Source: a virus
Length of the DNA: 59,332 nucleotides
Virus record (IMG/VR): IMGVR_UViG_3300007522_000023
Location: 1-59,332 of that record
Reading direction: 5' to 3' (one strand)
A program made the position numbers and the translations under genes. Positions within the stretch are counted from its first letter, which is position 1. Every line of letters starts with the position of its first letter. This document shows, one piece after another, positions 14,757 through 29,669 of this stretch. The notes beneath the pieces are model-generated. The model searched no databases. It saw only the letters and a program-made list of their open reading frames with translations, and was not told the DNA's origin.

Positions 14757-15706
14757 TGAATTTACTTAAATGGTTTAATAAAAAGATGGCTATTTTAACG
14801 TTAGCTATGGCTAGTGTTGAAAAAAACACATTATCACAATTAGGTGATACAACTCAAGCTACTACTAATAAAATACAAAGAAATAATCAAGGTACTTTGG
14901 CCGATTCACTTAAACAAGGTGAGATTACTCAAGAGGTTTTAGATATGCGTTGGAGAACATATAAAGTTCTTAGAGAAGGTGATAATTTATCTTCAAAAAT
15001 TGTTGGTTACGATGAAAATGGTATGCCAATAGTTAAAACAATTAAAAAGGATAAAAAATCTGGGTTAACTAAAGTTAAAATGGATAGTGAAGATTCATAC
15101 CCTTTAGAGATGCTTTTAGATAATACTGAAATAGTTACAAGTGGTAATAATGCTATGGATAATGAATATATTAGTATATTTGATGAAATAGAGAAAAAAC
15201 AAAACGAAGAAGGTGATGATGTAGCTAGTCATGGTAAGATTAGTTCAAGCGAATTCTTCGCAACAAATAAAACTGAAAAACCAATCATTATCCAACGAGA
15301 TTTTATACCAAAATTCGAAATAGAAAACTATACCAAAAAATTAAATATACGTAAAATAGATGACTCTAAAAGACTTTTAGAGTTTTATGTTAGTGTTTAT
15401 CCAGATGAGTATAATAGAACGTCTAGACTCTTTATTAGTGAGGTTAAGAAAGCTATTGTTGACCCAAGTAAAATAGATATGTTAACATTTTCTAAAGTTA
15501 ATTTTGTTACGTATAAGACTATGGGTGCTAATGATTTCTTAGAGTATCAATATGGAAATATTGAATTTGATAAGATTGTAGAATTTAATGGTCATTATGT
15601 TATTAAATTCATTTCTAATATTGTTATAGATGGTGAAGATACTTTGGAGAAGTTTCGTCAAAATGGTTTAGATAAAAAATATGTGAATAAAGAAGAAAAA
15701 AAATGA
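14756..15706 (+). CDS. Hypothetical protein within the glycosyltransferase run
   Basis: 316 residues, not recognised as a known domain. The N-terminus (LKWFNKKMAILTLAMASVEKN) is mildly hydrophobic but lacks a convincing signal peptidase site. It continues with a helical TLADSLKQGEITQEVLDMRWRTYKVL. The second half (FEIENYTKKLNIRKID, LLEFYVSVYPDEYNR, FDKIVEFNGHYVIKFIS) has mixed alpha/beta character. Its start overlaps the fusion glycosyltransferase stop (TAATG) and its end overlaps the next start by four bases, so it is embedded in the operon. It does not look like a glycosyltransferase and could be a virion protein. Confidence 0.65.
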   Translation: MNLLKWFNKKMAILTLAMASVEKNTLSQLGDTTQATTNKIQRNNQGTLADSLKQGEITQEVLDMRWRTYKVLREGDNLSSKIVGYDENGMPIVKTIKKDKKSGLTKVKMDSEDSYPLEMLLDNTEIVTSGNNAMDNEYISIFDEIEKKQNEEGDDVASHGKISSSEFFATNKTEKPIIIQRDFIPKFEIENYTKKLNIRKIDDSKRLLEFYVSVYPDEYNRTSRLFISEVKKAIVDPSKIDMLTFSKVNFVTYKTMGANDFLEYQYGNIEFDKIVEFNGHYVIKFISNIVIDGEDTLEKFRQNGLDKKYVNKEEKK

Positions 15707-16362
15707 ATTTAGTAATTAAATTTCCAACTAGGAATAGACCACATAAATTTTTAACAGTATTAAATAAGTATATTTCTAAACTAGATGATAAAAATACTAG
15801 AATAATTGTTAGTTGTGATATTGATGATGAGACAATGAATAATGATAATATGAAAGAAATCATATCAGAATATCATACTGTCACATTAAATTTCACGGAT
15901 AATAAATCAAAAATTGCTGCTATAAATGCGGATTTAGAAGGTGTAGATTTTGATATATTATTATTAGCTTCTGATGATATGATTCCACAAGTTAAAGGTT
16001 ATGACTCTATCATCAAAGAAAAGATGGTGACGTTATATCCAGACACAGATGGTGTATTGTGGTTCAACGATGGTTACCAAGGAAATAAATTAAACACTTT
16101 ATCAATTTTAGGTAAAAAATATTATGATAGGTTCAATTATATTTATAACCCAGAATATATTTCAGTTTGGTGTGATAACGAATTTATGGATGTTGCGAAT
16201 ATATTGGGAAAACAAACTTATATTAATGATGTAATAATTAAACACGAACACCCAGATTGGGGTCATGGTGATAGAGATGTTATTCACGGACTTAATTCAA
16301 AACATGAAACACACGATAGAACTCTTTACAATAATAGAAAACTTATTAAATTTGAAATATGA
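15703..16362 (+). CDS. GT-A (GT2-like) glycosyltransferase
   Basis: 219 residues. The start LVIKFPTRNRPHKFLTVLNKYI is a GT2 opening (strand, then T-R-N-R-P). ILLLASDDMIPQ (SDDM at 90-93) is the metal-binding DxD-type motif. VIIKHEHPDWGHGDRD near the end gives a late His ligand commonly seen in such enzymes. It is shorter than many GT2 domains but contains the whole core. It overlaps both neighbours by four bases (ATGA), indicating coupled translation. The sugar is unknown. Confidence 0.75.
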   Translation: MNLVIKFPTRNRPHKFLTVLNKYISKLDDKNTRIIVSCDIDDETMNNDNMKEIISEYHTVTLNFTDNKSKIAAINADLEGVDFDILLLASDDMIPQVKGYDSIIKEKMVTLYPDTDGVLWFNDGYQGNKLNTLSILGKKYYDRFNYIYNPEYISVWCDNEFMDVANILGKQTYINDVIIKHEHPDWGHGDRDVIHGLNSKHETHDRTLYNNRKLIKFEI

Positions 16363-17189
16363 AAGTAGCCTTTAATACAATGTTTAAAAATGAATCTAGA
16401 TTATTAGATGTAGTTTTACCAATATGGTCCAAATATAAAGTTGATTTATTTGTTTTTTACGATGATAATTCAACTGATAATTCTATTGAAATAATAGCAA
16501 AACATTTAGATAAAAGTAGATATGTCATTTTTAATGATAAATTAGAATCTTTTAATGAAGGGTACCAAAGACAAAAAATGATTGATGAAAGTATTCAATT
16601 AGATATGGATATATTACTATGTATTGATGTCGATGAATTACTTACATCAACAATTGTAAACGACTGGGACAACTTCTTAGAAGTTTATAAAACACATGAT
16701 ATGGAATTATTTTGGTATAATAGTGTTAATGATTCGTTAGAAAATTATAGAAATGACCCAGCATATAATAGTAATTATAGAACATTTGTTTTACCAGTGA
16801 CAGATATTGGTAGATTGAACACTTCAAACTATAAATATCACTCACCCAGAACACCTTTTGTTAATTTACCTAAAACACGAAGTAAACATTATGGAGTTAT
16901 TCACTTACAAGCTATTAGTACTAGATATTATGTAATAAAACAATTATGGTATAAACACCATGAATTTGTTAATTATGGTCATAGTGTTGAATTTATTAAT
17001 GAAAGATATGACCCAGTTATTAATGGGTTAAATTTCAATCAAGCTAAAATTAGTGAAGAAATGATTGATGGGATAACTATCGATTTATCTGTTTTTGATA
17101 AATTAGAAGAAGAAAAAGGTTATTTAACATTCATTAAAGAAAATTATAATGAGGAGCTTATTACGTTTGGTAATGAATTTTTATTATGA
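16359..17189 (+). CDS. GT-A glycosyltransferase (GT2/GT92-like)
   Basis: 276 residues. KVAFNTMFKNESRLLDVVLPIW and FVFYDDNSTDNSIEIIAKHL form the nucleotide-binding strand-helix unit. The DxD motif is ILLCIDVDELL (DVDE at 90-93). Late KTRSKHYGVIHLQ and YYVIKQLWYKHHEF supply His residues. The N-x-F-KNE opening and D-D-N-S-T-D recall the GT92/Glyco_tranf_2_4 group (inference). It overlaps both neighbours by four bases. Confidence 0.75.
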   Translation: MKVAFNTMFKNESRLLDVVLPIWSKYKVDLFVFYDDNSTDNSIEIIAKHLDKSRYVIFNDKLESFNEGYQRQKMIDESIQLDMDILLCIDVDELLTSTIVNDWDNFLEVYKTHDMELFWYNSVNDSLENYRNDPAYNSNYRTFVLPVTDIGRLNTSNYKYHSPRTPFVNLPKTRSKHYGVIHLQAISTRYYVIKQLWYKHHEFVNYGHSVEFINERYDPVINGLNFNQAKISEEMIDGITIDLSVFDKLEEEKGYLTFIKENYNEELITFGNEFLL

Positions 17190-17929
17190 GCTTAACTATT
17201 GGAATAACGACCTTTTCGAAAAGATTTGATTTAGTTAGTAAACTAATTAACCAAATTAGGGAAATTAATAAAACTGATAAAATTTTACTATGTATAAATG
17301 GTGAGAAAGATGGTAATTTTAATGAAGAATATAGAGAAAATATATTAAATCTATGTGTTAAGTATAATGATGTTTTCCCAATATTTTTTATTGAAATGAG
17401 AGGATTAAGTAAAATGTGGAATACACTAGTAGTAAACTCAGATAAAGAAAATATTTTATTATTAAATGATGACTTAGAGATATATGAACCTACAATTTTT
17501 GAGCAAATAAAAACTCACATGAACTCTGCTGATTATAATGGGTTTACTAGAATAAATAATTCTTTTTCTCATTTTTTAATTGATAAAAATGTTATTGATG
17601 ATTTAGGTTATTTTGATGAGAGATTATTAGGTTTTGGTGAAGAAGATGGGGATATATATTATAGATGTATAAAAAAAAATGTTAAAATAACTGATACAAA
17701 CATTATAGGTTTTAATAACTTAATATCAAATATACGACATGATGAAGTTAAAAATGGTATTGGTAAATATTCTAAATTTAACAGAGATTTTATTTATGAA
17801 TACAAATACTTACCAGACCAAACAAGCCCATTTAAAGGTATGTTCGATAGTCCAATGAAACAATTAATTGAAGACGTTAAATTATACCCATATGAAACGT
17901 TCTTTAAAGAAAATAAAAATAATCTATAA
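17186..17929 (+). CDS. GT-A (GT2) glycosyltransferase
   Basis: 247 residues. SLTIGITTFSKRFDLVSKLI opens the GT2 fold. ILLLNDDLEIYEP (NDD at 94-96) is the metal-binding motif. GYFDERLLGFGEEDGDIYYRC carries the ED pair expected for the catalytic base region of GT2 enzymes (known for the family). The start overlaps the preceding stop by four bases and the stop shares one base with the next ATG. Confidence 0.8.
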   Translation: MSLTIGITTFSKRFDLVSKLINQIREINKTDKILLCINGEKDGNFNEEYRENILNLCVKYNDVFPIFFIEMRGLSKMWNTLVVNSDKENILLLNDDLEIYEPTIFEQIKTHMNSADYNGFTRINNSFSHFLIDKNVIDDLGYFDERLLGFGEEDGDIYYRCIKKNVKITDTNIIGFNNLISNIRHDEVKNGIGKYSKFNRDFIYEYKYLPDQTSPFKGMFDSPMKQLIEDVKLYPYETFFKENKNNL

Positions 17930-19155
17930 TGTATATTAATGGGTTAAGTGGTGATATAACAATTAATTTATTTAAAACTGATGAAAATAAACGTGAAATA
18001 AATGTTCACGTATTAAAAAGCGTAAGACCAATTGGTGATTCTTTATTCTACCCAAATATACTTTTTATAAAATATAATTCAACACCAAAGTTAATAATTA
18101 ACCCTCTAGATGAAAAAATAATGTCGTTAGAAAAAACAACTAAAAAAACAACTTTTAGTGACGACAAAATACTTAATTTATCAGAAATTAAACATCACGA
18201 AAGTAATCCAGTATTTTTCTTTGTATATAACACTGAAAATTATTTCCATTTTATTTATGACACACTACCATACTTAATCTCATATTTTGAAGTTAAAAAG
18301 GATAATCCAAAGCTTAAGTTGTTAATGAATTTTCCTAATAAAAATAATGAATTTTATAAATTTGTTAGTGAGTTATTATTAATTATAGGTATTAAACATG
18401 AAGATATTTTAATCATTGATAATAATACAACTTATGAAACTGTGTTTATATCAGACTCTTATACACATGGAATCGACTCCAATCTACCACCAAGAGCTGA
18501 ATTAAAAACTCTATATAAAAATATTGTTAATAAAGTAAAAAATAATACTGATTACCCTAAAAATATCTATGTATCTAGAAGAAGTTGGGTACATGGTGAT
18601 ATGTCTAACATAGGTACAAACTACACTACTAGACGTAAACTAGTAAATGAAGATGAATTAGTTTTATTATTAAAAAAACACGATTTTGTTGAGGTTTTCA
18701 CTGAAAATATGAGTATGGTTGATAAGATAAATTTATTCGCTAATGCTGAAAATATAATAGGACCAATTGGTGGTGGTTTAGTTAATTCAGTTTTTTCTAA
18801 AAAAGATTGTAATCTAATTTCAATAATGTCACCAGAATTCATTAATGTAAATAAAAGGTTTATTTTTTCAATTAATGGTGTAAATTTAAAAACGTTCGAA
18901 GATACTAAACATACTGAAAAAACTGATTTTAAATTATATATGCGAGTTGAAGTTGATAATATTGTGGGTGAGATAATCGATATAACTGGTAATAAATGTA
19001 AAATATCGTATAGTGACACTTCTGTTTCTGGTTGGAATAGTGAAAGCAAATACAAACAAAAAGAATGTTACCTCTCAGATTGTATAAAATTAGATAACGG
19101 GTTAAATTCATCATGGGAAATTAATTTAACTAAATTTAAAGAAAAATATTTATGA
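17929..19155 (+). CDS. GT61-family (DUF563-like) glycosyltransferase
   Basis: 408 residues. The central part follows the GT61/DUF563 pattern: NTENYFHFIYDTLPYL, KNIYVSRRSWVHGD, RRKLVNEDELVLLLKKHDFVEVF, then SMVDKINLFANAENIIGPIGGGLVNSVFS. The Y-x-S-R-R and G-x-x-G-G-G-L-x-N signatures are well placed. About 100 residues follow the core (VEVDNIVGEIIDITGNKC, SKYKQKECYLSDC) and may be a small beta domain. GT61 enzymes transfer pentoses or GlcNAc in other organisms, but the substrate here cannot be read. It overlaps the next gene by four bases. Confidence 0.8.
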   Translation: MYINGLSGDITINLFKTDENKREINVHVLKSVRPIGDSLFYPNILFIKYNSTPKLIINPLDEKIMSLEKTTKKTTFSDDKILNLSEIKHHESNPVFFFVYNTENYFHFIYDTLPYLISYFEVKKDNPKLKLLMNFPNKNNEFYKFVSELLLIIGIKHEDILIIDNNTTYETVFISDSYTHGIDSNLPPRAELKTLYKNIVNKVKNNTDYPKNIYVSRRSWVHGDMSNIGTNYTTRRKLVNEDELVLLLKKHDFVEVFTENMSMVDKINLFANAENIIGPIGGGLVNSVFSKKDCNLISIMSPEFINVNKRFIFSINGVNLKTFEDTKHTEKTDFKLYMRVEVDNIVGEIIDITGNKCKISYSDTSVSGWNSESKYKQKECYLSDCIKLDNGLNSSWEINLTKFKEKYL

Positions 19156-19961
19156 TTAATTATATAATTTACAGTCACACATCATATTTAGATGTGTTAA
19201 ATATTCAAAGTGACCATATAGAAAAATATGAAAACACTACATTATTTATTAACACTAATAACGATGATAATATTACCCAAATTTATGATAAGTTCAAGCG
19301 AGTTATATTTTATAATGATTCACAACCATACGCAAAACGTTTAATTGAATGTATTGAACAAATTGATGATAAATATTTTTTACTTATTCACGATATTGAT
19401 ATTTTATTGTCTGTTGATGAAGAAATAATATTGAAATTGTATAATTTCATGGAAACTAAATGTGTTGATAGGGTTGATTTAAAACAAGCACCTAATTTGA
19501 ATACAAATGAAGTAATTAAATTTGGTCACGATACACCAAACGATAAGATGATACCAACACTACCTTCTGAGATTATCGATGGTTTATATCTAATTAAACA
19601 AGAAATACCAGAGGATTACATTTACAATGTTAACCCATCAATATGGTATAGAGAATCTTTTTTAACATTACTTAATATTTTCCCAAATAAAACTTATCGT
19701 GATATTGAAGGTATGGATGTTCAAAGATTCTCAACTAATTTATTAATATATAAATTATTTACATTAAAACCAATTAAATGTGGTTATTTTGAGTGTTTAG
19801 ATATATTTAAATTTTTACATATAAGTCATAGCGGAAAATTATTATTACTTAATGAAAAATATGAAACAGAATATGGTCAATCATATGTAGATGTTAGTGA
19901 TGAATATATAAATATTATCAATAAGTATAATCTTAAGGTATCAGATAAATGGGTAAATTAA
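19152..19961 (+). CDS. Putative GT-A glycosyltransferase, paralogue A
   Basis: 269 residues. NYIIYSHTSYLDVLNIQ, YFLLIHDIDILL (HDID at 80-83, a DxD-type motif), YIYNVNPSIWYRES, KTYRDIEGMDVQRFS, then CGYFECLDIFKFLHISHSGK. Every block recurs in the same order in the gene at 20874, so the two are paralogues with one gene between them. The DxD motif and cluster position support a glycosyltransferase, although no standard family is obvious. It starts four bases inside the GT61 gene. Confidence 0.65.
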   Translation: MINYIIYSHTSYLDVLNIQSDHIEKYENTTLFINTNNDDNITQIYDKFKRVIFYNDSQPYAKRLIECIEQIDDKYFLLIHDIDILLSVDEEIILKLYNFMETKCVDRVDLKQAPNLNTNEVIKFGHDTPNDKMIPTLPSEIIDGLYLIKQEIPEDYIYNVNPSIWYRESFLTLLNIFPNKTYRDIEGMDVQRFSTNLLIYKLFTLKPIKCGYFECLDIFKFLHISHSGKLLLLNEKYETEYGQSYVDVSDEYINIINKYNLKVSDKWVN

Positions 19962-19962
19962 T

Positions 19963-20877
19963 ATGAGTTTAGAAGAAATAAAAAACTGTAAATACATTTC
20001 AAGTGTTGGAATGTTAAAAAGATTGGATGAAAATGAAATAATAACATACGATGCTGCACCAGATAAAATAACCCACAACTTCAATAAGTTATTAAACGGT
20101 AAAAACGGTTCAATTATATATGTTAAATTTGCATTTATTAGACAATTTATATATCAAGTACTACCAAGTATAAATTATAATTTTATATTAGTAACTGGTG
20201 ATGGTGATGAATCAATGCCAAATGATATATTTGACCAAAACACGTTTAATTCTATAATTAACGATACTAGGGTGATACACTGGTATTCTGTTAATTGTAA
20301 TGAAGAATTACATATAAAATTTTCGTTAATACCTATTGGTGTTAATTTTCATTCGTTATCTTATGGTGAATTTTGTGGGTGGAATGAAACAGCTATAACT
20401 CCGTTAGAACAAGAAAATATAATTGAAAATATAAAAAATAATTCGTTACCGTTCTATGAACGCAAAGTAATGTGTTATTCTAATTTTCATTTTTTAATAC
20501 ATAATGAATTTGGAAACCCTAGACAATCAGCTATTGATAATGTACCTAAAGATTTAGTTTATTATGAGCCAGTATTTAAACCAAGGCTAGAATCTTGGGA
20601 AACACAATCAGAATACGCATTTGTACTTTCACCTATGGGTCATGGGATGGATTGTCACAGAACTTGGGAAGCATTAATTTTAGGTTGTATACCAGTTGTT
20701 AAAAAGTCACAATTGGATAGTTTATATGAAGGATTACCAGTATTAATTGTTAATGAATGGAGTGATATAACTGAAAAACTTTTATTTGAAACTATCGATA
20801 AATTCAAAAATATGGTTTTTGAATATGATAGAATAACTGCCGAATATTGGGTGGATAAAATAAAAAATCTTAAATGA
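19963..20877 (+). CDS. Exostosin-like (GT47-type) glycosyltransferase
   Basis: 304 residues. The C-terminal half has the exostosin-type signature YAFVLSPMGHGMDCHRTWEA followed by LILGCIPVVKKSQLDSLYEGLPVL. In exostosin and related GT-B enzymes this segment binds the nucleotide sugar. The N-terminal half (YVKFAFIRQFIYQVLP, NFILVTGDGDESMP) is more divergent. One base separates it from the stop of paralogue A, and its end overlaps paralogue B by four bases. Confidence 0.75.
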   Translation: MSLEEIKNCKYISSVGMLKRLDENEIITYDAAPDKITHNFNKLLNGKNGSIIYVKFAFIRQFIYQVLPSINYNFILVTGDGDESMPNDIFDQNTFNSIINDTRVIHWYSVNCNEELHIKFSLIPIGVNFHSLSYGEFCGWNETAITPLEQENIIENIKNNSLPFYERKVMCYSNFHFLIHNEFGNPRQSAIDNVPKDLVYYEPVFKPRLESWETQSEYAFVLSPMGHGMDCHRTWEALILGCIPVVKKSQLDSLYEGLPVLIVNEWSDITEKLLFETIDKFKNMVFEYDRITAEYWVDKIKNLK

Positions 20878-21662
20878 TAGAATATAAAGTACATAAACAC
20901 ACAACTAAAAATAGTGATGGTATAATAAATTACATGATTTACAGTCATAGTTCATTCATAGACATATTGAAAATTCAAATTAATTATATTTCTGGAAATG
21001 GTCATTTAACACTATGTATTGATAAAAATAATTTAGATTTAGAATATATATATGATAAGTTTGATAATGTAGTGTTTTATGATAGTAACCAAACCTACGG
21101 ACAAAAATTACTAAGCTGTATAAAACAAGTTGATTATGAATACATTTTGTTAATGCATGATATCGATATATTATATGATATTGATAAAACAAAGGTCCTA
21201 GAACTTCAGAACTTTTTAATAGAAAATAAATATGATAGAGTTGATTTTCAATTAGCTTATGATTTTGATAGTACACATTATAACACTATAAATGATGATG
21301 AATTATACCTAATCAAATCATCAAATACAGACACTAGAAATAAAGGTTATATCTATAACGTAAACCCATCAATATGGAAAAGAAAAACGTTAGAAACGAT
21401 ATTAGATAAGTTTAGTCATTTAGACTATAGAACTATAGAACAAGATAGTGTCCAAGAATTTTCATCTCAATTCAATATTTTTAAATTATTTTCTAAAGTC
21501 AGATATAATTGTGGGTATTTTACATGTTTAGAACCTTTTAAATATTTACATATAACACACAGTAGAACATTATTTAATCCTAACACTTTACCACCAGAAG
21601 ATAGTAAAGATGTTATTGATGAATATAATAAAATAATTAAAAAATATAATTTAGAAAAATAA
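20874..21662 (+). CDS. Putative GT-A glycosyltransferase, paralogue B
   Basis: 262 residues. It matches paralogue A block for block: NYMIYSHSSFIDILKIQ, YILLMHDIDILYD (HDID), YIYNVNPSIWKRK, DYRTIEQDSVQEFS, then CGYFTCLEPFKYLHITHS. An N-terminal extension of about 18 residues precedes the shared start. Sequence divergence is large, so the duplication is old or the copies entered separately; different sugars or acceptors are likely. The stop overlaps the next ATG by one base. Confidence 0.65.
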   Translation: MIEYKVHKHTTKNSDGIINYMIYSHSSFIDILKIQINYISGNGHLTLCIDKNNLDLEYIYDKFDNVVFYDSNQTYGQKLLSCIKQVDYEYILLMHDIDILYDIDKTKVLELQNFLIENKYDRVDFQLAYDFDSTHYNTINDDELYLIKSSNTDTRNKGYIYNVNPSIWKRKTLETILDKFSHLDYRTIEQDSVQEFSSQFNIFKLFSKVRYNCGYFTCLEPFKYLHITHSRTLFNPNTLPPEDSKDVIDEYNKIIKKYNLEK

Positions 21663-22438
21663 TGGATAATAATAAACCAGTGTTCATAATTGCACACAAA
21701 TATTTTAGAGGATATGATAGTTATGTTGAATATTACATAAACAACATTAGAGAGTTCTATGAGGATTCATTAATTATTGTTGTTGATAACAATTCAATAT
21801 ATAAAGACGATATTTTTAATAACTTAAAGAAATATGATAATGTCATATTACTAGATAATAACATTGAGTGTAAATTTGAATTAGGTGCCTACCAAGTAGG
21901 TACTAAATATTTGATTGATAATGACTTATTAGATAAATACGCTTATGTTGTTATGACGCAAGATAATTTTATTATTAAAAATAAATTAGATTTTAATCAA
22001 TTATCTGAAGCTAACGTAAAAGCTTGCCCATTAAATGGATGTGACCAAAATGTTGATTCACCAGAATATTTTAACATACAACAAAGTTGTACTGATATTT
22101 CAATACCAGTGCTAGATAAAATAGGGTTAAACGATAATTGGGATAAAATTTCGTTTTGTTGGTGTAATAGCTTCATTTTATCAACAGATAAGTTATTACA
22201 GATGTATGGGTATATGCAACAAATAGTAATTAAAATTAGATGGGAAAGTTGTGCATCTGAAAGATATTTAGCTAGATTACTTTGGGAATTAAATGATAAA
22301 GTAAATTATGATATTGATGGTGATATTAGAAACTTAAAAAATAAATACGACTGTTGGAATGTAGATTTAAATGTACCTCAAGTAACATTTTTCGTTAAAA
22401 AATTACAACAAAAAGATGAAAGGACCGTAGATAAATGA
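21662..22438 (+). CDS. Putative GT-A glycosyltransferase
   Basis: 258 residues. KPVFIIAHKYFRGYDSYVEYYI then LIIVVDNNSIYKDDIF are the first two strand-helix units of a GT2-like fold. YAYVVMTQDNFIIKN takes the place of the DxD motif (QDN). CWCNSFILSTDKLLQM and SCASERYLARLLWEL lie where the acceptor region would be. The weak metal motif makes the call less certain than for its neighbours. It is coupled by overlaps to the genes on both sides. Confidence 0.6.
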   Translation: MDNNKPVFIIAHKYFRGYDSYVEYYINNIREFYEDSLIIVVDNNSIYKDDIFNNLKKYDNVILLDNNIECKFELGAYQVGTKYLIDNDLLDKYAYVVMTQDNFIIKNKLDFNQLSEANVKACPLNGCDQNVDSPEYFNIQQSCTDISIPVLDKIGLNDNWDKISFCWCNSFILSTDKLLQMYGYMQQIVIKIRWESCASERYLARLLWELNDKVNYDIDGDIRNLKNKYDCWNVDLNVPQVTFFVKKLQQKDERTVDK

Positions 22439-23331
22439 TAATTAAAAAAGTAAATAAAGGTGTTATTTATTATAATAATGACGAATCAATACATATTAAA
22501 GATTATTATAATTATTGTGTTAATTTATTAATTAATTGGTTAACAGATAACGATAAAGAAATAAATATAATATTTGGTGATTACAAAGTAGATTTTAATA
22601 ATAATTTTGAGACGATAAAAATCGATATTCAAATTGAACATACATTAGTTAAAAGTGGTGGTAGAAGTGTTAACGATAAAATATATGGAACTACTAAAAC
22701 TGATAATGGTGAAGTTTACTTAGTTAGAATAGATAAGTTTAATTATTATAATTCGCTAGATTATATATTTGAATATAGTTACCCTAATACTCACAATATA
22801 AAATCTTCTGGGTATTTTAATGAATTCTCCGATAAAATAATTAATATTACCCCATCAATGTACTCACCTAATTTTGATAAAACTAATAAAATTGATTCAA
22901 TAACTTTATTTAGTAGTAACTCTAGTCAAAGAAGAGATGATATAACAAAAGAATTAAAAGAAAAAAACATTAATTGTATAAATATTGATAACTGTTTTTC
23001 ATCAGATGATTTAATTAATCAATATAATAAGACTAAAATAATGTTAAATGTACATCAAACTGAACATCATCATACTTTTGAGGAATTAAGGGTGTTACCA
23101 GCACTAAGTAACGGTGTTATTATAATAAGTGAAAATGTTCCATTAAAAGAACTAATACCTTATAGTAACCATGTCGTGTGGTGTGAATATAGTGAATTAT
23201 CCAACACGCTTAAATATGTTCAAGAAAATTATGAGGAATTTTATGAAAAACTATTTAATAATGAATTAAAAGAATTATTATTAACCTTAAAAGAAACTAA
23301 TAATAAAAAACTAAATATTCTAAATAAATGA
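22435..23331 (+). CDS. Putative GT-B glycosyltransferase (C-terminal-half type)
   Basis: 298 residues. The N-terminal 140 residues are Asn/Tyr-rich and not recognised. From about 160 the sequence resembles the C-terminal half of GT-B enzymes: SITLFSSNSSQRRDDITKEL, KIMLNVHQTEHHHTFEELRV, LPALSNGVIIISENVPLKEL and HVVWCEYSEL. The E-x-x-R-x-x-P-A-L block is the likely nucleotide-sugar site (inference). Overlaps of four bases occur at both ends. Confidence 0.65.
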   Translation: MIIKKVNKGVIYYNNDESIHIKDYYNYCVNLLINWLTDNDKEINIIFGDYKVDFNNNFETIKIDIQIEHTLVKSGGRSVNDKIYGTTKTDNGEVYLVRIDKFNYYNSLDYIFEYSYPNTHNIKSSGYFNEFSDKIINITPSMYSPNFDKTNKIDSITLFSSNSSQRRDDITKELKEKNINCINIDNCFSSDDLINQYNKTKIMLNVHQTEHHHTFEELRVLPALSNGVIIISENVPLKELIPYSNHVVWCEYSELSNTLKYVQENYEEFYEKLFNNELKELLLTLKETNNKKLNILNK

Positions 23332-24785
23332 AAGTTGCACTATTAATATCTGGATACTTAAGAAGTTACGATATAAATCTTAAATATATTGAAGCCGAGA
23401 TATTAAATAAATTTGACCATGTTGATGTTTTCCTACATATAACCAGTAATGAAAAAAATGAAGATAAGTATATAAATTCAGTTAGTGATGAAGAAGCTAT
23501 TAATAGTTTTACTGCTGCTTTAAACCCATTAAGTACGATTATTGAAAGTAACATACACTACTATAATGATAGTAATCTTAACAGCCTAATAAATCAATGG
23601 CATAAACTTTTTAAATTAAATGATTTGAAAAAAAAACATGAAGAAATTAATGGTAAAAAATATGATTTGGTTATTAGATTTAGACCAGATTTAACCATCA
23701 ACGGTAAGGGTGTATTTAGTGATTTAATTGAAGGGGTAATAACGATACCAAGTGATAGTAAAATCGATAATTCTAAATTGCGTAACCCAAATGATTTACA
23801 TATATGTGACGCTTTAGCTTTTGGTGATTCTACATCCATGGATAAATATTTTGGTATCTATGAGCACATATTAGATTTGGTTCACGAATATGGTTATGTC
23901 TCAGAAACAATACTATATTGGTATTTAAATAAAAATAAAATAAATTATAAAGTTGCTGATATTGATTACGGTTTCACATTATCTAAATGTAATGTATTTG
24001 CTATTGCTGGTGACTCTGGCTCTGGGAAAAGTACACTAGGTGAATTACTTAAGGGGGTTTTTACTAATTCTTTTATGTTAGAGTGTGATAGGTACCACAA
24101 ATGGGAACGTGGTGATAAAAATTGGGATAATGTAACCCATTTAAACCCAAGTGCTAATTATATCACAAAAATGGTTGGTGATATATTTAATTTAAAATTA
24201 GGTAATGATATTTACCAAGTTGATTATAATCATCACAGTGGTAAATTTACTGATAAACAAATTATTAATTCATCTGATAATATAATTGTTTGTGGTCTTC
24301 ATAGTTTATATACTGATTCGATTTACGATTTAAAGATATTTATCGACACCGAAGAATCACTCAAAAAAAAATGGAAGATAAAACGTGACGTTAGAGACAG
24401 AGGATACTCAGTTCAAAAAGTGTTAGATAGTATTGCAAAACGTGAAAGCGATTTTAATGAATTTATTTTACCGCAAAAAGATAACGCAGACTTGATAATT
24501 AAATTTTTTACACTAGACAAAATTGACTTCAACGACTACAATAAACCAGAGCGTTTAAGTCTTGAGTTGACAATTAATAATAATTTTAACCTTACTGAAA
24601 TATTAAGTAGATTAGATGAAATTGGGGTTGAATATTTCATTAAAAAGGATAATTATTTTAATAAAATAATTTTTAATGAATATAATAACTTGGTTTTATT
24701 TAAAGATGATAAAATTCCAAGAACTAATACATTTTATGATTATATTATGTATGTTATTTTTAATTTAGTATTTACAAATAAATAA
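23328..24785 (+). CDS. Fusion: glycosyltransferase-like domain plus uridine kinase/PRK-type kinase
   Basis: 485 residues. Residues 1-215 (KVALLISGYLRSY, DHVDVFLHITSN, DLVIRFRPDLTI) resemble small glycosyltransferase-like proteins of glycan clusters. Residues 220-395 are a P-loop kinase of the uridine kinase/phosphoribulokinase group: Walker A GDSGSGKST (228-236), ECDRYHKWERGD, HLNPSAN, DLKIFIDTEESLKKKWKIKRD and RGYSVQKVLDSIAKR. About 90 residues follow. The kinase should phosphorylate a sugar, polyol or nucleoside. Next to an aldolase, phosphatase and nucleotidyltransferase it could activate an unusual sugar (inference). The fusion is not one I recognise. Confidence 0.7.
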   Translation: MKVALLISGYLRSYDINLKYIEAEILNKFDHVDVFLHITSNEKNEDKYINSVSDEEAINSFTAALNPLSTIIESNIHYYNDSNLNSLINQWHKLFKLNDLKKKHEEINGKKYDLVIRFRPDLTINGKGVFSDLIEGVITIPSDSKIDNSKLRNPNDLHICDALAFGDSTSMDKYFGIYEHILDLVHEYGYVSETILYWYLNKNKINYKVADIDYGFTLSKCNVFAIAGDSGSGKSTLGELLKGVFTNSFMLECDRYHKWERGDKNWDNVTHLNPSANYITKMVGDIFNLKLGNDIYQVDYNHHSGKFTDKQIINSSDNIIVCGLHSLYTDSIYDLKIFIDTEESLKKKWKIKRDVRDRGYSVQKVLDSIAKRESDFNEFILPQKDNADLIIKFFTLDKIDFNDYNKPERLSLELTINNNFNLTEILSRLDEIGVEYFIKKDNYFNKIIFNEYNNLVLFKDDKIPRTNTFYDYIMYVIFNLVFTNK

Positions 24786-24808
24786 ATATTTTTTATTTTT
24801 AAATAAAA

Positions 24809-25486
24809 ATGGATAAAATCTCATCAAATTTATTAAAATTAGCTTCAAATGTTTCGAAATATTGTGTTGGTATGGAGGGAAACATATCTGGACTTGATGA
24901 AGATGGGTCTATTCTAATAAAGGCTAGTGGTTCAAATCTGTCTAAATTAACCGAGAATGATTTAATACCATTTGATATAGATGGAAATCAAACGGGTAAA
25001 ATGGATAAACGTGGTAGTATTGAATTAAGTTTTCATTTATTTCTTTTAGGGTTTGAGGATATAAATTATATCTCACACACACATCCTATTAGTAGTTTAA
25101 AAATTTTATGTGGTAATCAAATAACCAAACACTTATTTAGTACCCGTAGGTTATTTCCAGACCAAGTAATCTTTAATGGTAAAGAATCTTGTTTGGTTCC
25201 ATATTCAAAACCTGGTGAAGAATTAACCGATAAAATTAAAGAAAAAGTTAATGGTTTTATTAATAAAAATGGGTATTTCCCAAAATTAATATTATTAGAA
25301 AATCACGGTATAATTAGCTGCGGTAAAACAATTGAGGAATGTATAATAATTAATGATATATGTGAAAAATCAGCAGATATTTTTAATGGTAATGAAATAA
25401 ATAATTTAACTTTTTTAACAATTGAAAATATTAATGAGTTAATTATAGATAAAGGTGAAGAATATAGACAAAGTTTAGTAAAATGA
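24809..25486 (+). CDS. Class II aldolase/epimerase family protein (AraD/FucA-like)
   Basis: 225 residues, the usual length. Family motifs are in order: EGNISGLDEDGSILIKASGSN (substrate phosphate loop), NYISHTHPISSLK (two Zn-binding His) and LLENHGIISCGKTIEEC (third Zn-binding His). Members cleave or epimerise sugar phosphates such as fuculose-1-P or ribulose-5-P. The residues do not fix the substrate. It follows the kinase fusion after 23 bases and overlaps the next gene by four. It is unusual in a phage. Confidence 0.85.
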   Translation: MDKISSNLLKLASNVSKYCVGMEGNISGLDEDGSILIKASGSNLSKLTENDLIPFDIDGNQTGKMDKRGSIELSFHLFLLGFEDINYISHTHPISSLKILCGNQITKHLFSTRRLFPDQVIFNGKESCLVPYSKPGEELTDKIKEKVNGFINKNGYFPKLILLENHGIISCGKTIEECIIINDICEKSADIFNGNEINNLTFLTIENINELIIDKGEEYRQSLVK

Positions 25487-26253
25487 AATCAACGGGTATA
25501 AGTTTAGGTTGGAACTGTTCAGCAGCACAAGACGGGTTAAGAATGGGGTTAAGAGGTGTAAAATCAGATGGTTATAAAACATGTCCATTTGATATGATGA
25601 TAAGTAACTATTTTGGTATGTGTGAATGCATTAAAGATGATTTTAAATATTTTTGTGACCCTAAATACTTAGTGTTAAGGGATGCACCAGACATGTCAAT
25701 GCATTTCCCAAATCAAAAGGATGGTGAGAAATGGATATATAATACTTATTATAATTTTACGTTTAATCATGAATCACCATATCATGGAAATTTATATCTT
25801 AATGAACAATGGAGCAGCCCACACCATTTTGTTAATAACAATTATGAAAACTTTATTAAAAGATATGAAGCTAGAATAAAGGCGTTTAGAGATTATATTA
25901 ATTCTGGTGAGTTTATTAATTTTGTGTTATGGAGGTATAACGCAATTCCTAATGAGTTAGAAACAATAATTAAAGATAAATACCCTAATTTAAAATTTAA
26001 TATCAATTCAATAATTGATTTTGGACCACACACACTTAATGCGTTGATAAAAAACAACCCAGAAGCTGCAAAGTTACAAGAAATCGATTATTTAAAATAT
26101 ATGAATGTGACAAATTCAGAATATGATAGATATTATTCTGAAAATATAAATAAATTTGATGAAACAAATAAAGATATTAAGGTTACTGATAATATAACGT
26201 TAATTGAACCAAAAAATAATAAATTTCTAAATGACCCGAATTATTTACGTTGA
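25483..26253 (+). CDS. DUF1796-like (putative papain-like cysteine peptidase fold) protein
   Basis: 256 residues. The start TGISLGWNCSAAQDGLRMGLRG followed by CPFDMM matches the SLGxNC...PFD pattern of the DUF1796 family, which is predicted to have a papain-like fold and often lies in glycan-synthesis clusters. The Cys in GWNC would be the nucleophile. A matching late His is less clear (FGPHTLNALI is a candidate). Function in glycan clusters is unknown. Its 3' end overlaps the HAD gene by 23 bases. Confidence 0.6.
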   Translation: MKSTGISLGWNCSAAQDGLRMGLRGVKSDGYKTCPFDMMISNYFGMCECIKDDFKYFCDPKYLVLRDAPDMSMHFPNQKDGEKWIYNTYYNFTFNHESPYHGNLYLNEQWSSPHHFVNNNYENFIKRYEARIKAFRDYINSGEFINFVLWRYNAIPNELETIIKDKYPNLKFNINSIIDFGPHTLNALIKNNPEAAKLQEIDYLKYMNVTNSEYDRYYSENINKFDETNKDIKVTDNITLIEPKNNKFLNDPNYLR

Positions 26254-26527
26254 TATAGACGAAACAATATGTGAAACTCCTTCACCAAGGAATTACCATA
26301 ACGCTAAACCATTAATTGAAAATATTGCAAAAATAAATAAATTATATGATGAAGGTAATACTATTGTTTATTGGACTGCTCGTGGGAGTCGAACACAAAT
26401 TGATTGGTATAAACTAACTAAATTACAATTAGATGAATGGGGTGCTAAACATCATGAATTAAACGTAAATAAACCATATTATGATTTATTTATAGACGAT
26501 AAAACACTTAGAATTGAAGAAATTTAA
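26231..26527 (+). CDS. Small HAD-family phosphatase
   Basis: 98 residues, a minimal cap-less HAD domain. Motif I is IYVDIDETIC (nucleophile Asp8 and Asp10), motif II is IVYWTARGSR (Thr), and the acidic end motif is YDLFIDDKTL. The pattern matches small phosphatases found next to nucleotidyltransferases in capsule clusters, which probably remove a phosphate from a sugar bisphosphate (inference). Its ATG lies inside the end of the preceding gene in another frame. Confidence 0.8.
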   Translation: MTRIIYVDIDETICETPSPRNYHNAKPLIENIAKINKLYDEGNTIVYWTARGSRTQIDWYKLTKLQLDEWGAKHHELNVNKPYYDLFIDDKTLRIEEI

Positions 26528-26663
26528 CAAAACTATATTATTACCACCAAATATTTCTTTTGGAGATTCTATGTCTGTTATTGGGTTGGTTTATTATTTA
26601 TTAGAATATTACGAGGCAGTATATTTTTATATCGACCCAACTATGAACCTAAATTATGTTTGA
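26514..26663 (+). pseudogene. Probable remnant of a deleted gene
   Basis: In the 189-base gap between the HAD and GDPD genes, one frame reads KFNKTILLPPNISFGDSMSV then IGLVYYLLEYYEAVYFYIDP before a TGA. This is a natural-looking start of an alpha/beta enzyme (strand, Gly-loop, helix, strand), but it ends after 49 codons. A little further on (26668-26712) a short frame MMNTPKLNNWIFKF ends in TAA and could be the C-terminal scrap. An internal deletion of a glycosyltransferase-like gene would explain both. Confidence 0.35.
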
Positions 26664-26716
26664 ACCATGATGAATACTCCAAAATTAAATAACTGGATTT
26701 TTAAATTTTAAATATA

Positions 26717-27199
26717 ATGAAATTAATATCACACAGAGGAAATATTGTTGGGCCAAATCCAAGCCGTGAAAACAAACCATCTTACATTGATACAGCAATC
26801 TCAGCTGGTTTTGATGTGGAAGTAGACATCATATTCAATGATGGTAAATTCTATCTCGGTCATGACACACCAGACTATGAGGTCACAGAAAAATGGATAT
26901 CACTTAGAAAATATAAGTTATGGTTACACTGTAAAAATTTGGAAGCTGCAACTAGGTTGTGTGAATTAGGGGACTCCCACCAATTTTTCTGTCATTCTTC
27001 AGATTCTTATGTCTTATGTAGTAATGGTAAAACATGGGTTCATGATTTAAAACTTAATGTTTCTAAAACAACAACAATAATACCTCTTCTGAGTGATAAC
27101 GATATCATTAACTATAATGGGGCTATACCATATGCTATATGTACTGATTACATATCACTTGCTGAATATAGTTTAAAACAAAAAGGAATTTATAAATGA
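26717..27199 (+). CDS. Glycerophosphodiester phosphodiesterase (GDPD)-like protein
   Basis: 160 residues, shorter than usual GDPD enzymes (about 240). It has the catalytic start KLISHRGN, then NKPSYIDTAISAGFDVEVDI with the metal-binding acidic pair, KFYLGHDTPDYEV, and LWLHCKNLEAATRL. Family members hydrolyse glycerophosphodiesters; short versions occur in glycan clusters, where they may trim or transfer phosphodiester-linked groups (inference). It overlaps the tandem nucleotidyltransferase by four bases, suggesting joint action. Confidence 0.75.
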   Translation: MKLISHRGNIVGPNPSRENKPSYIDTAISAGFDVEVDIIFNDGKFYLGHDTPDYEVTEKWISLRKYKLWLHCKNLEAATRLCELGDSHQFFCHSSDSYVLCSNGKTWVHDLKLNVSKTTTIIPLLSDNDIINYNGAIPYAICTDYISLAEYSLKQKGIYK

Positions 27200-28758
27200 A
27201 TAACAAACCACAATTAATAATACCAATGTCTGGAATCGGTAAAAGATTTATTGATGCTGGGTATGATACACCAAAACCACTAATAGTTGTTGATGGGAAA
27301 CCAATAATTGAACACGTCGTAAATCTTTTCGGGAGACCTAATGATGTTATATTCGTTTGTAATGAAATTCACCTTAAAGAAACAAATATGATTGATATAC
27401 TTAAAAGAATATCACCTAATTGTAAAATTTATTCAGTTCCAAATGAAAATAGATGTGGACCAGTAGATGCAATTTCACAAATATTTGATAAAATAAATGA
27501 TGATAGAGAAGTAATTATTAGTTACTGTGATTACGGTACTGTTTGGGATTATGAATTATTCATAACAGAAACTAGAAATTCTAAATCTTACGGTGCTATA
27601 GCATGTTACACTGGTTTTCACCCTCACATGTTAGGTTCTGACAATTATGCCTTTGTTAAAGTCGAAGGAAATGTAGCTTCCGATATTCAAGAGAAAAAAC
27701 CATTCACTGATAATAAAATGAATGAACTTGCTTCTAACGGTACTTATTATTTTAAAAGCGGTAGTTTAGTTAAAAAGTATTTTAAATTATTAATAGATAA
27801 CAAAATGGACCTTAACGGTGAATACTATGTTAGTCTAGTTTATAAATTATTATTAAAAGATAAACTTTTAGTAACAACCTTCTTAATTGATAAGATGTTA
27901 CAATGGGGAACTCCGTATGATTTAGAAATATATAATGGCTGGTCTAGATATTTTACAAATATAAAAACTAAACAAGTAAAGGTAAGTAATCCAAAAGGCA
28001 CTACGTTAGTATTACCAATGGCTGGCAAGGGTAGTAGGTTTGAATCTGAAGGTTATAATCTACCAAAACCGATGTTAAATGTTGACGGGAAACCAATGAT
28101 AATCCAAGCGGTTAATTGTTTACCCTCATGTGATAATAACACCTTTATATGTTTAAATGACCACATAGAAAAATTTAAAATAGATGAGACGATAATTAAA
28201 TCATTTCCTAATGCTAAAATAGTTAGTATTGATAAAACGACTGAAGGTCAAGCTTGCACTTGTGAAATTGGAATTGAATCTAATAATATAGATTTAGATA
28301 ACCCAATATTAATATCTGCATGTGATAATGGCGTGTATTATGATTCAAAAAAATATTTAGAAATGGTAAATGATGAGAGTATAGATATCATAGTCTGGTC
28401 CTTTAGAAACAATCAAGCTAGTAAGACAAATCCGAATGCATATGCTTGGTTAAATGTTGATAAAGATGGTTTTATTAAACACGTTTCATGTAAAAAGTTT
28501 ATATATAACGACCCATTAACTACCCATGCAATAATTGGTACTATGTTTTTTAGACGTGGTAGTTATTTTAAAGATGGATTAAATAAGAATTATATTGAAA
28601 ACATTAGAACCAACGGTGAATTTTATGTCGATGATGTTTTGAATCAAAATATAAAGGATGGTTTAAAAATTAAAGTATTTGAGGTTGAGAACTATATCTG
28701 TTGGGGGACACCAAACGACTATAAAACTTATAATTATTGGGAAGAATTTTTCAAATAA
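27196..28758 (+). CDS. Tandem (two-domain) sugar nucleotidyltransferase
   Basis: 520 residues made of two complete NTP-transferase domains. Domain 1 (about 1-255) starts LIIPMSGIGKRFIDAGYDTP then KPLIVVDGKPIIEHVV, with metal-site SYCDYG at 109-114. Domain 2 (from about 268) starts LVLPMAGKGSRFESEGYNLP then KPMLNVDGKPMIIQAV, with SACDNG near 374-379. Both keep the G-x-G-x-R-F...P-K-P signature. Each also has a late WGTP(Y/N)D motif, so both could be active. Members couple a sugar phosphate or similar compound to NTP. Two such domains in one chain are unusual. It is the last enzyme of the main glycan run. Confidence 0.85.
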   Translation: MNNKPQLIIPMSGIGKRFIDAGYDTPKPLIVVDGKPIIEHVVNLFGRPNDVIFVCNEIHLKETNMIDILKRISPNCKIYSVPNENRCGPVDAISQIFDKINDDREVIISYCDYGTVWDYELFITETRNSKSYGAIACYTGFHPHMLGSDNYAFVKVEGNVASDIQEKKPFTDNKMNELASNGTYYFKSGSLVKKYFKLLIDNKMDLNGEYYVSLVYKLLLKDKLLVTTFLIDKMLQWGTPYDLEIYNGWSRYFTNIKTKQVKVSNPKGTTLVLPMAGKGSRFESEGYNLPKPMLNVDGKPMIIQAVNCLPSCDNNTFICLNDHIEKFKIDETIIKSFPNAKIVSIDKTTEGQACTCEIGIESNNIDLDNPILISACDNGVYYDSKKYLEMVNDESIDIIVWSFRNNQASKTNPNAYAWLNVDKDGFIKHVSCKKFIYNDPLTTHAIIGTMFFRRGSYFKDGLNKNYIENIRTNGEFYVDDVLNQNIKDGLKIKVFEVENYICWGTPNDYKTYNYWEEFFK

Positions 28759-28799: not shown

Positions 28800-29669
28800 A
28801 TGACTAGAAAAGTTTCTCAAGTAAACAAACCATTAACTACTAGAAAACCTAGAGTTAAAAAGGATGAAAATGAAATTACATTTGAAAAAGGAAGTTCATT
28901 AGAACAAATTAAAATTGAGATTAAACATAAAAATGATACTCAAAAAAAATTAACTTCATCTATTAAATCAAATGATATAACCATATGTACTGGTCCAGCA
29001 GGTACTGGAAAAACGTACATTTCTTGCTTACAAGCACTTTATGATTTAAAAAATGATGATGATATTAAAAAGATTGTTTTGGTTAAATCTGTAACAACTT
29101 TAAAATCTGAAGAGATTGGTTTTTTAAAAGGAACTATGGAAGAAAAAATGGAACCTTTTATGTATTCTTTTACTGGTAATTTTGAAAAAATATTAGGTAA
29201 AGAACTATTTGCTAAACTTAAAGCTGAAAACTTTATTGAAATAATGCCAATAGCCTACCTTAGAGGCGTTAACATAGATAACGCAATAGTTATTATTGAT
29301 GAAGCACAAAATATCACCATTGACAATATTAGAACGATACTTACTCGTTTAGGTGAAAAATCTAAAATGGTATTTTTGGGTGATGTTAAACAAATTGACT
29401 CTAAAAATAAATACGATAGTGCTTTAAAGTTCTTAGTGGAAAGATTTAATAACATACCTAAAATAGGTGTTGTAGAATTCTTTAAAAGTGATATTGTAAG
29501 ACACCCAATGATTAAAATAATTGAAGAGGTTTTTGATAAATTTGAAGAAGAAAATGAAATTAGCAAAAAAACTTCAGAAAAAAAACAATTATTAATAGAG
29601 AATAAAAGACCTATTAATCAAGAAAAAGACAAATCAATTATCGGTAGACTTATAAGGTTTTTTAATTAA
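28800..29669 (+). CDS. phoH: PhoH-family P-loop ATPase
   Basis: 289 residues. Walker A is GPAGTGKT (65-72) and Walker B is IVIIDEAQN (163-171), with the PhoH-specific KSVTTLKSEEIGFLKGTMEEK between them and MVFLGDVKQID after. PhoH proteins are RNA-linked ATPases common in marine and T4-like phages; their job in infection is unresolved. A basic N-terminal tail (first 25 residues) and a charged C-terminal tail flank the core. It has its own promoter-like element and a hairpin downstream, so it is probably monocistronic. Confidence 0.95.
   Translation: MTRKVSQVNKPLTTRKPRVKKDENEITFEKGSSLEQIKIEIKHKNDTQKKLTSSIKSNDITICTGPAGTGKTYISCLQALYDLKNDDDIKKIVLVKSVTTLKSEEIGFLKGTMEEKMEPFMYSFTGNFEKILGKELFAKLKAENFIEIMPIAYLRGVNIDNAIVIIDEAQNITIDNIRTILTRLGEKSKMVFLGDVKQIDSKNKYDSALKFLVERFNNIPKIGVVEFFKSDIVRHPMIKIIEEVFDKFEEENEISKKTSEKKQLLIENKRPINQEKDKSIIGRLIRFFN

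Follow-up and report, generated by a model that had tools for sequence, protein, structure and literature searches.

A five-enzyme gene run recurring in phages and bacteria, a probable route to a nucleotide-activated glycan donor

Results

Five enzymes lie in one run of a viral genome

The window, that is, the whole 59,332-nucleotide stretch analyzed here (IMG/VR virus record IMGVR_UViG_3300007522_000023, positions 1 to 59,332), carries downstream of a series of glycosyltransferase genes a near-overlapping run of five enzyme parts, all on the + strand, between positions 23328 and 28758. An earlier note had listed these as a kinase, a class II aldolase, a HAD phosphatase, a GDPD-like enzyme, and a tandem nucleotidyltransferase (NTase), and all five are indeed in place with intact catalytic motifs. 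The run also contains a DUF1796 gene, a non-kinase domain at the N terminus of the kinase protein, and an internally deleted gene, none of which had been mentioned before. The features are as follows.

13083 to 23331, + strand: glycosyltransferase-like gene run, probable donor users (several GT domains, some below cut-off)
17929 to 19155, + strand: GT61-family glycosyltransferase, candidate transferase for the product (PF04577, 3e-19)
23328 to 23940, + strand: N-terminal domain of the kinase protein, perhaps glycosyltransferase-like (phrog_13607, 1.8e-11, residues 1-205)
23964 to 24785, + strand: phosphoribulokinase-type (PRK) kinase domain (PF00485, 1.2e-30)
24809 to 25486, + strand: class II (zinc) aldolase, fuculose-phosphate-aldolase type (PF00596, 1.9e-24)
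25483 to 26253, + strand: DUF1796 protein, accessory (PF08795, 2.6e-11)
26231 to 26527, + strand: small HAD phosphatase, EcbF/BcbF capsule type (TIGR01689, 2.2e-6; 9iqw, 1.6e-14)
26514 to 26716, + strand: remnant of a gene of ~300 codons, middle deleted (tblastn with the L048 fusion protein; sequence)
26717 to 27199, + strand: compact GDPD-fold phosphodiesterase, predicted (AlphaFold/Foldseek; motif residues)
27196 to 28758, + strand: tandem NTase (PF12804/PF00483/PF01128)
28800 to 29669, + strand: phoH-like gene, downstream edge of the island (phrog_170, 1.1e-68)

In the product of 23328-24785, it is residues 223-394 that match the PRK family, and this domain matches solved phosphoribulokinases at ~1e-28. 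Alignment with 9qko, 6hzk, 6gve, and 5b3f shows that it has kept the P-loop GDSGSGKST and the D-x-Y-H-x-x-x-R, Y-N-H, G-L-H, and R-D motifs, whose residues are invariant across phage and cellular relatives. Its PRK07429 score of 174.6 bits is below the curated cut-off of 236, and uridine kinases likewise belong to the PF00485 family. Since tblastn with the PRK domain gave no match among INPHARED phages, this kinase was seen only in IMG/VR and in genomes. The N-terminal domain has relatives encoded by stand-alone genes in cyanophage modules.

The aldolase has its three metal ligands (H90, H92, and H166) and its acid (E72) in invariant columns, and the best match of its profile in the PDB is L-fuculose-1-P aldolase 2opi (2.8e-17); against curated models of named enzymes, the best score (46.5 bits) does not reach the cut-off of 250. 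Of the aldolase or epimerase proposed in the earlier note, the class II aldolase stands and the epimerase is disfavored because the active-site acid is a FucA-type Glu, 4-epimerase chemistry being possible. The HAD protein is 68% identical to that of cyanophage S-SM2, matches a solved "capsule biosynthesis protein" (9iqw), and matches the EcbF/BcbF-like model TIGR01689 at 27.6 bits, against a curated cut-off of 162. HAD proteins of this type are often misnamed phosphoheptose isomerase.

The product of 26717-27199 matches no Pfam family even at an E value of 10. Its AlphaFold model (pLDDT 94.9) has as best PDB match the Thermus GDPD 1v8e (Foldseek E value 2.5e-4), and its motif residues (His-Arg, Glu-x-Asp, His-Asp, and Lys) do not vary among 18 relatives; this model predicts a GDPD-fold phosphodiesterase. 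The NTase consists of two NTP_transf_3-type domains (approximately residues 1-262 and 263-520), both of which keep the residues of the R-F...PK motif (R-F and PKP), and the second of which gives a cytidylyltransferase-like (IspD) match at 1.4e-7. It is 48% identical to the S-SM2 protein and 49-52% identical to cellular homologues in Flavobacteriales. No substrate is readable from sequence alone, and the NTase domains reveal neither base nor sugar.

The deleted gene is intact (316 codons) in a sister virus, and tblastn with the L048 fusion protein finds in the window only its first ~60 and its last codons. DUF1796 is present in 6 of 77 related viral contigs, the closest relatives only.

The gene set recurs in viruses and in bacteria

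Linkage was counted in these 77 non-redundant viral contigs, which were collected by their NTase or GDPD. About 60 of them carry the aldolase-HAD-GDPD-NTase set, with HAD present in 69, aldolase in 63, and GT61 in 61; aldolase and HAD are directly adjacent in 53, and HAD and GDPD in 55. When the search was made by aldolase instead, the aldolase was found with both HAD and GDPD in 44 of 53 contigs, and HAD, GDPD, and NTase accompany it in 42-44. The cultured cyanophages S-SM2 and Bellamy carry the four-enzyme set as well, and the linkage is repeated in two gene orders. In these cyanophages GT61, whose window gene is 41% identical to theirs, is a syntenic partner lying between NTase and aldolase. 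By comparison of these sequences, PRK joins aldolase, HAD, GDPD, and NTase in one phage lineage.

All five kinds of enzyme are clustered in five bacterial genomes, two of Flavobacteriales and three of Pseudomonadota (phyla Bacteroidota and Pseudomonadota). The parts are partly non-orthologous to those of the phages, from which the aldolase, HAD, and GDPD subfamilies differ: the Pseudomonadota GDPDs are weak matches to the viral GDPD profile, and the flavobacterial GDPD was missed by that profile, its fold being confirmed by structure comparison. The clusters adjoin a DPM-like GT2 and usually also a GtrA membrane protein, which points to sugar transfer through polyprenyl phosphate, and in both Flavobacteriales genomes they lie within a dTDP-rhamnose/polysaccharide locus. 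Counting against a pathway, one of six cellular genomes with a tandem NTase (L388) has none of the other enzymes nearby. SAR11 genomes carry the GDPD-NTase pair. The pathway, phage-encoded in the earlier note, is consequently not purely phage-made.

A RuBisCO-like protein can take the place of the supplier enzymes

A RuBisCO-like protein (RLP) replaces PRK, aldolase, and HAD in 80 other viral loci, 78 of which have the NTase family and 71 the GDPD family. The same replacement occurs in some SAR11 genomes, and one virus has an NTase-RLP-GDPD cassette followed by the same phoH as in the window (L278). Aldolase and RLP almost never occur together in these modules. The constant pair is thus NTase and GDPD, while the supplier enzymes swap. 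In 76 of 88 cases, an NTase from an RLP or SAR11 locus matches domain 2 of the window NTase by a slightly higher score, a difference that is not decisive for assigning substrates to domains.

PRK is present in 33 contigs, none of which carries psbA/psbD, whereas all 10 PRK-less records of at least 60 kb do, a contrast that is confounded with phage lineage and possibly reflects a single event. Hosts of the psbA-carrying lineage make ribulose bisphosphate themselves. Lone relatives of the aldolase adjoin psbA/psbD in cyanophages, so the family can work outside the module.

Discussion

A probable route to an activated sugar

That the set is kept together in related phages and that the same five kinds of enzyme cluster in bacteria make a real pathway apparent. 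Comparative genomics across distant phages and five bacterial genomes thus strongly favors the single activated-sugar pathway of the earlier note. The donor may, as that note supposed, be one foreign to the host. The run as a whole is likely to specify a nucleotide-activated donor, and the sugar is probably destined for surface glycans. We envisage a mobile biosynthetic module making such a donor for surface or virion glycans. The PRK domain would act on a ketose phosphate, with ribulose-5-phosphate the likeliest, and phosphorylate it to a bisphosphate. Through retro-aldol chemistry, the aldolase would rearrange or cleave this bisphosphate or what is made from it. The HAD phosphatase would take one phosphate off, and one or both NTase domains would join a nucleotide to the phosphate that is left. 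Transfer of the residue would then fall to glycosyltransferases of the island, GT61 being the best candidate. As for the GDPD, a fixed part of the system, it may cleave a phosphodiester that arises as an intermediate or by-product, or else provide glycerol-3-phosphate. The bacterial donor would pass through a polyprenyl-phosphate sugar, handled by the DPM-like GT2, GtrA, and a membrane GT.

Entry through ribulose phosphate, taken by itself, is plausible, although we would sooner bet against it than for it, and no kinase with exactly these PRK-domain motifs appears to be characterized here, which counts against. More tentative still is the idea that Calvin-cycle-type chemistry serves glycans, with ribulose (bis)phosphate made by PRK and reshaped by the aldolase, or a similar pentulose phosphate handled by RLP, so that a rare pentulose or a fragment of it would be nucleotide-activated and placed onto surface glycans in a pathway common to phages and some bacteria. 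A pentulose is hinted at by the PRK/psbA contrast, by the lone aldolases next to psbA/psbD, and by the RLP loci. A residue derived from a pentulose (bis)phosphate may, we infer, be the product; xylulose, which occurs in some bacterial polysaccharides, is one candidate pentulose (PMC8707391).

Other readings of the run

The GDPD-NTase pair might instead make or edit CDP-polyol or CDP-glycerol in a variant resembling teichoic acid synthesis, the GDPD giving or removing glycerol-3-phosphate and the suppliers only providing polyol phosphates. The constancy of the pair in phages and SAR11 speaks for this, as do the IspD-like match of NTase domain 2 and the fact that characterized GDPDs yield sn-glycerol-3-phosphate. 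We nevertheless consider it unlikely, as neither a polyol dehydrogenase nor a TagF/LicD-type phosphotransferase was found in the run, and the cellular GT2 and GtrA point elsewhere. Less likely again is auxiliary central metabolism, in which PRK and aldolase would convert pentose phosphates to serve nucleotide or energy needs in an incidental glycan neighborhood. Lone aldolase relatives do occur next to psbA/psbD and, in S-SCSM2R, near an AOX gene, but most aldolases keep company with HAD, GDPD, and NTase, and a bacterial cluster joins the five kinds, in Flavobacteriales within a polysaccharide locus.

That unrelated cargo genes became neighbors by chance in a glycan island has in its favor that such islands are mosaic in phages, with DUF1796 and the deleted gene coming and going. 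The linkage counts oppose it, and the contig NTases, 46 to 81% identical to that of the window, do not form a single close clade. A chance run is effectively excluded, since the set turns up in dozens of contigs, takes two gene orders, and has counterparts in bacteria from two phyla; we hold such a coincidence to be extremely improbable.

Comparison with known systems

A description of the five-enzyme set did not turn up in our literature searches. A donor pathway of the kind preferred here gives a testable set of five enzymes for an activated sugar carried by phages among aquatic bacteria; the cultured phages S-SM2 and Bellamy and the bacterial clusters are places to look for its product. Closest are the LPS/glycan clusters of these two phages, with the same aldolase, HAD, GDPD, tandem NTase, and GT61 (41-68% identical), but in another gene order and without PRK. 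Their genes are annotated singly: HAD is called a "phosphoheptose isomerase," and GDPD is listed as hypothetical.

Heptose activation uses GmhA, the kinase HddA/HldE, the phosphatase GmhB, and the NTase HddC/HldE. The logic is the same, a kinase and a phosphatase moving phosphate before an NTase activates the sugar, and the window NTase is weakly similar to HddC; aldolase and GDPD are extra. We rejected the heptose pathway itself, as proteins of the run have no GmhA isomerase domain and the kinase is of the PF00485 PRK type, not GHMP/PfkB. The Lic phosphocholine pathway, taken together with GlpQ, combines a GDPD and a cytidylyltransferase-like NTase for surface decoration. This too was rejected, since neither a LicA-type kinase nor a LicD transferase was found in the run, and PRK and aldolase do not fit. 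The CDP-glucitol work in C. jejuni concerns a pair made up of an NTase and a dehydratase-annotated partner, not the five-enzyme set (PMC10918830).

The MtnB-MtnW-MtnX steps of methionine salvage (class II aldolase fold, RuBisCO-like, and HAD) draw on the same superfamilies, which are alternatives or partners here. In contrast to methionine salvage, these modules are joined to NTase and GDPD, and the aldolase is nearer FucA than MtnB. A landfill survey reported a single viral RbcL-like gene (PMC12607003); here, PRK and a large viral RLP family are tied to apparent surface-glycan synthesis, outside both the Calvin cycle and methionine salvage. No RuBisCO was seen among the window proteins examined. 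While the window kinase aligns with Calvin-cycle phosphoribulokinase, including D-x-Y-H-x-x-x-R and Y-N-H, it differs from it in being fused to another domain and in lying in a glycan island.

A conserved gene run with intact active sites

The earlier note had proposed that positions 23328-28758 may encode a phage activated-sugar pathway giving a nucleotide-coupled donor. The kinase, aldolase, HAD phosphatase, GDPD-like and nucleotidyltransferase ORFs that it named are indeed present there, in one tight run on the + strand.

Genes of the run and the evidence for each
23328-24785, + strand: phosphoribulokinase (PRK)-type kinase protein (domain searches)
24809-25486, + strand: class II aldolase (domain searches)
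25483-26253, + strand: DUF1796 protein (domain searches)
26231-26527, + strand: HAD phosphatase, EcbF/BcbF-like (domain searches)
26717-27199, + strand: GDPD-like protein (structure model)
27196-28758, + strand: tandem nucleotidyltransferase (NTase) with two NTP-transferase domains (domain searches)
from 28800: phoH, after the NTase

The segment 26514-26716 is the remnant of a gene whose middle has been deleted, the counterpart of which is intact in a sister virus (L089, 9045-9992) and joined to GDPD as a fusion in L048 (3543-4919). The virus contig comprises the window and nothing more. Judged from its Gp23 capsid protein, for which the closest cultured phages are Flavobacterium phage immuto and Microcystis phage Mel-JY01, the virus is T4-like. 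Elsewhere in the window, the prohead protease gene (44101-45966, - strand) is split by a probable intein, since Intein_splicing and LAGLIDADG_3 matches adjoin the protease matches.

When aligned to solved phosphoribulokinases, the PRK domain matches at the P-loop, D-x-Y-H-x-x-x-R, Y-N-H, G-L-H and R-D, motifs that are mostly kept in distant relatives too. In the aldolase, whose closest solved enzymes are L-fuculose-1-phosphate aldolases, residues H90, H92, H166 and E72 are invariant. The GDPD-like protein matched no Pfam family; its confident predicted model is a compact GDPD barrel by structure comparison, and the residues of the GDPD motif do not vary among 18 relatives. The NTase motifs are kept in both domains. 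As none of the run's enzymes reaches the curated cut-offs for named enzymes, exact substrates cannot be assigned. PHROGs and phage records (L003:18303-18614 among others) label the small HAD phosphatase "phosphoheptose isomerase"; the protein is in fact a HAD bearing the D-x-D motif.

The module recurs in viral contigs

In the cultured cyanophages S-SM2 and Bellamy, NTase, the glycosyltransferase GT61, aldolase, HAD and GDPD are consecutive, with 41-68% identity to their counterparts in the window. IMG/VR scans by NTase and GDPD, with annotated phages added, gave 77 non-redundant viral contigs encoding NTase (76), GDPD (73), HAD (69), aldolase (63), GT61 (61) and PRK (33). Two gene orders occur, PRK-ALD-HAD-GDPD-NTase and, without PRK, NTase-GT61-ALD-HAD-GDPD (ALD, aldolase), with ALD-HAD immediately adjacent in 53 contigs and HAD-GDPD in 55. 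A second scan, seeded with the aldolase, yielded 53 non-redundant contigs; HAD and GDPD accompany the aldolase in 44 of them, NTase in 42 and PRK in 26. The GDPD frame of S-8S55 (L006:11076-11522) exceeds the annotated 105-residue gene, its start lying further upstream.

The remaining 9 of these 53 contigs carry an aldolase without module partners. These lone aldolases form a single subgroup, with ~43% identity to the window aldolase, and most of those with upstream flank available lie near psbA or psbD (cyanophage loci L346, L353, L354, L335, L360 and L340); in S-SCSM2R (L367), a lone relative is two genes away from an AOX gene. This suggests a distinct role for the lone cyanophage aldolases in infected photosynthetic cells.

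Supplier enzymes vary and point to a possible pentulose entry compound

Across modules, NTase and GDPD are constant while the putative supplier enzymes vary. Among SAR11-order genomes, 17 of 297 (~6%; L184-L200) have a GDPD gene, which nearly always directly adjoins an NTase, itself mostly fused to a HAD_2 domain. In three SAR11 genomes, the partner is a RuBisCO-like protein (RLP). An RLP likewise takes this place in the best 80 of 265 viral relatives from IMG/VR, of which 78 have NTase and 71 GDPD. In viral contig L278, an NTase-RLP-GDPD cassette occupies the position of the window's PRK-ALD-HAD-GDPD-NTase, upstream of phoH (63% identity) and a counterpart of the window gene at 30895 (72%); aldolase and RLP occur together in a single contig only. 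In all 83 aligned sequences, the carbamate-lysine/metal motif K-E-D-E and K-P-K of the RLP is retained, but Gln occupies the position aligned with H294 and Tyr replaces the loop-6 lysine, which makes a carboxylase function unlikely. This large family of viral and SAR11 RLPs (L207-L286; L169, L201 and L202; L177; L085:13683-14921) adjoins NTase and GDPD genes almost everywhere, and in examined cases an FkbM methyltransferase or short cupin-like gene lies near; we found no account of this setting in the literature. SynMITS9220M01 encodes an NTase-RpiB/LacAB isomerase fusion (L008:9007-10161) with PfkB, HAD and GDPD genes, its isomerase, PfkB and HAD representing a putative alternative sugar-phosphate supplier.

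None of the 33 PRK-carrying viral records has psbA or psbD, as against 13 of 39 PRK-less records, including all ten of at least 60 kb, a contrast that is confounded with phage lineage. A phage PRK would be dispensable in cyanobacterial hosts, which produce ribulose bisphosphate through a PRK of their own. Taken with the aldolases that stand alone near psbA and with the replacement by RLP, this contrast suggests that the entry compound is a pentulose (bis)phosphate. Several bacterial polysaccharides contain xylulose (PMC8707391), which, speculatively, is one possible product.

A cellular version in bacteria

Searching bacteria with PRK and tandem-NTase profiles revealed two Flavobacteriales genomes with a locus encoding a class II aldolase, HAD, tandem NTase (49-52% identity to that of the window), GtrA, a DPM-like GT2, a GDPD-fold protein, confirmed as such by structure comparison, and a membrane glycosyltransferase-PRK fusion. 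This five-enzyme locus also contains dTDP-rhamnose and polysaccharide genes, sugar-gene names beyond Pfam matches being assigned from reading the sequences. Tandem NTases occur in 4 of 329 Pseudomonadota genomes, three of which have the same enzyme set inside 7-11 kb. The aldolase, HAD and GDPD of the bacterial clusters belong to subfamilies other than the phage ones. The best reason to regard the pathway of the earlier note as real is that the same five kinds of enzyme are brought together from components that are in part non-orthologous. Sequence comparison, through linkage in viruses and clusters in bacteria, thus strongly supports the proposed activated-sugar reading, in which the five-enzyme set would constitute an apparently undescribed nucleotide-sugar pathway common to phages and bacteria.
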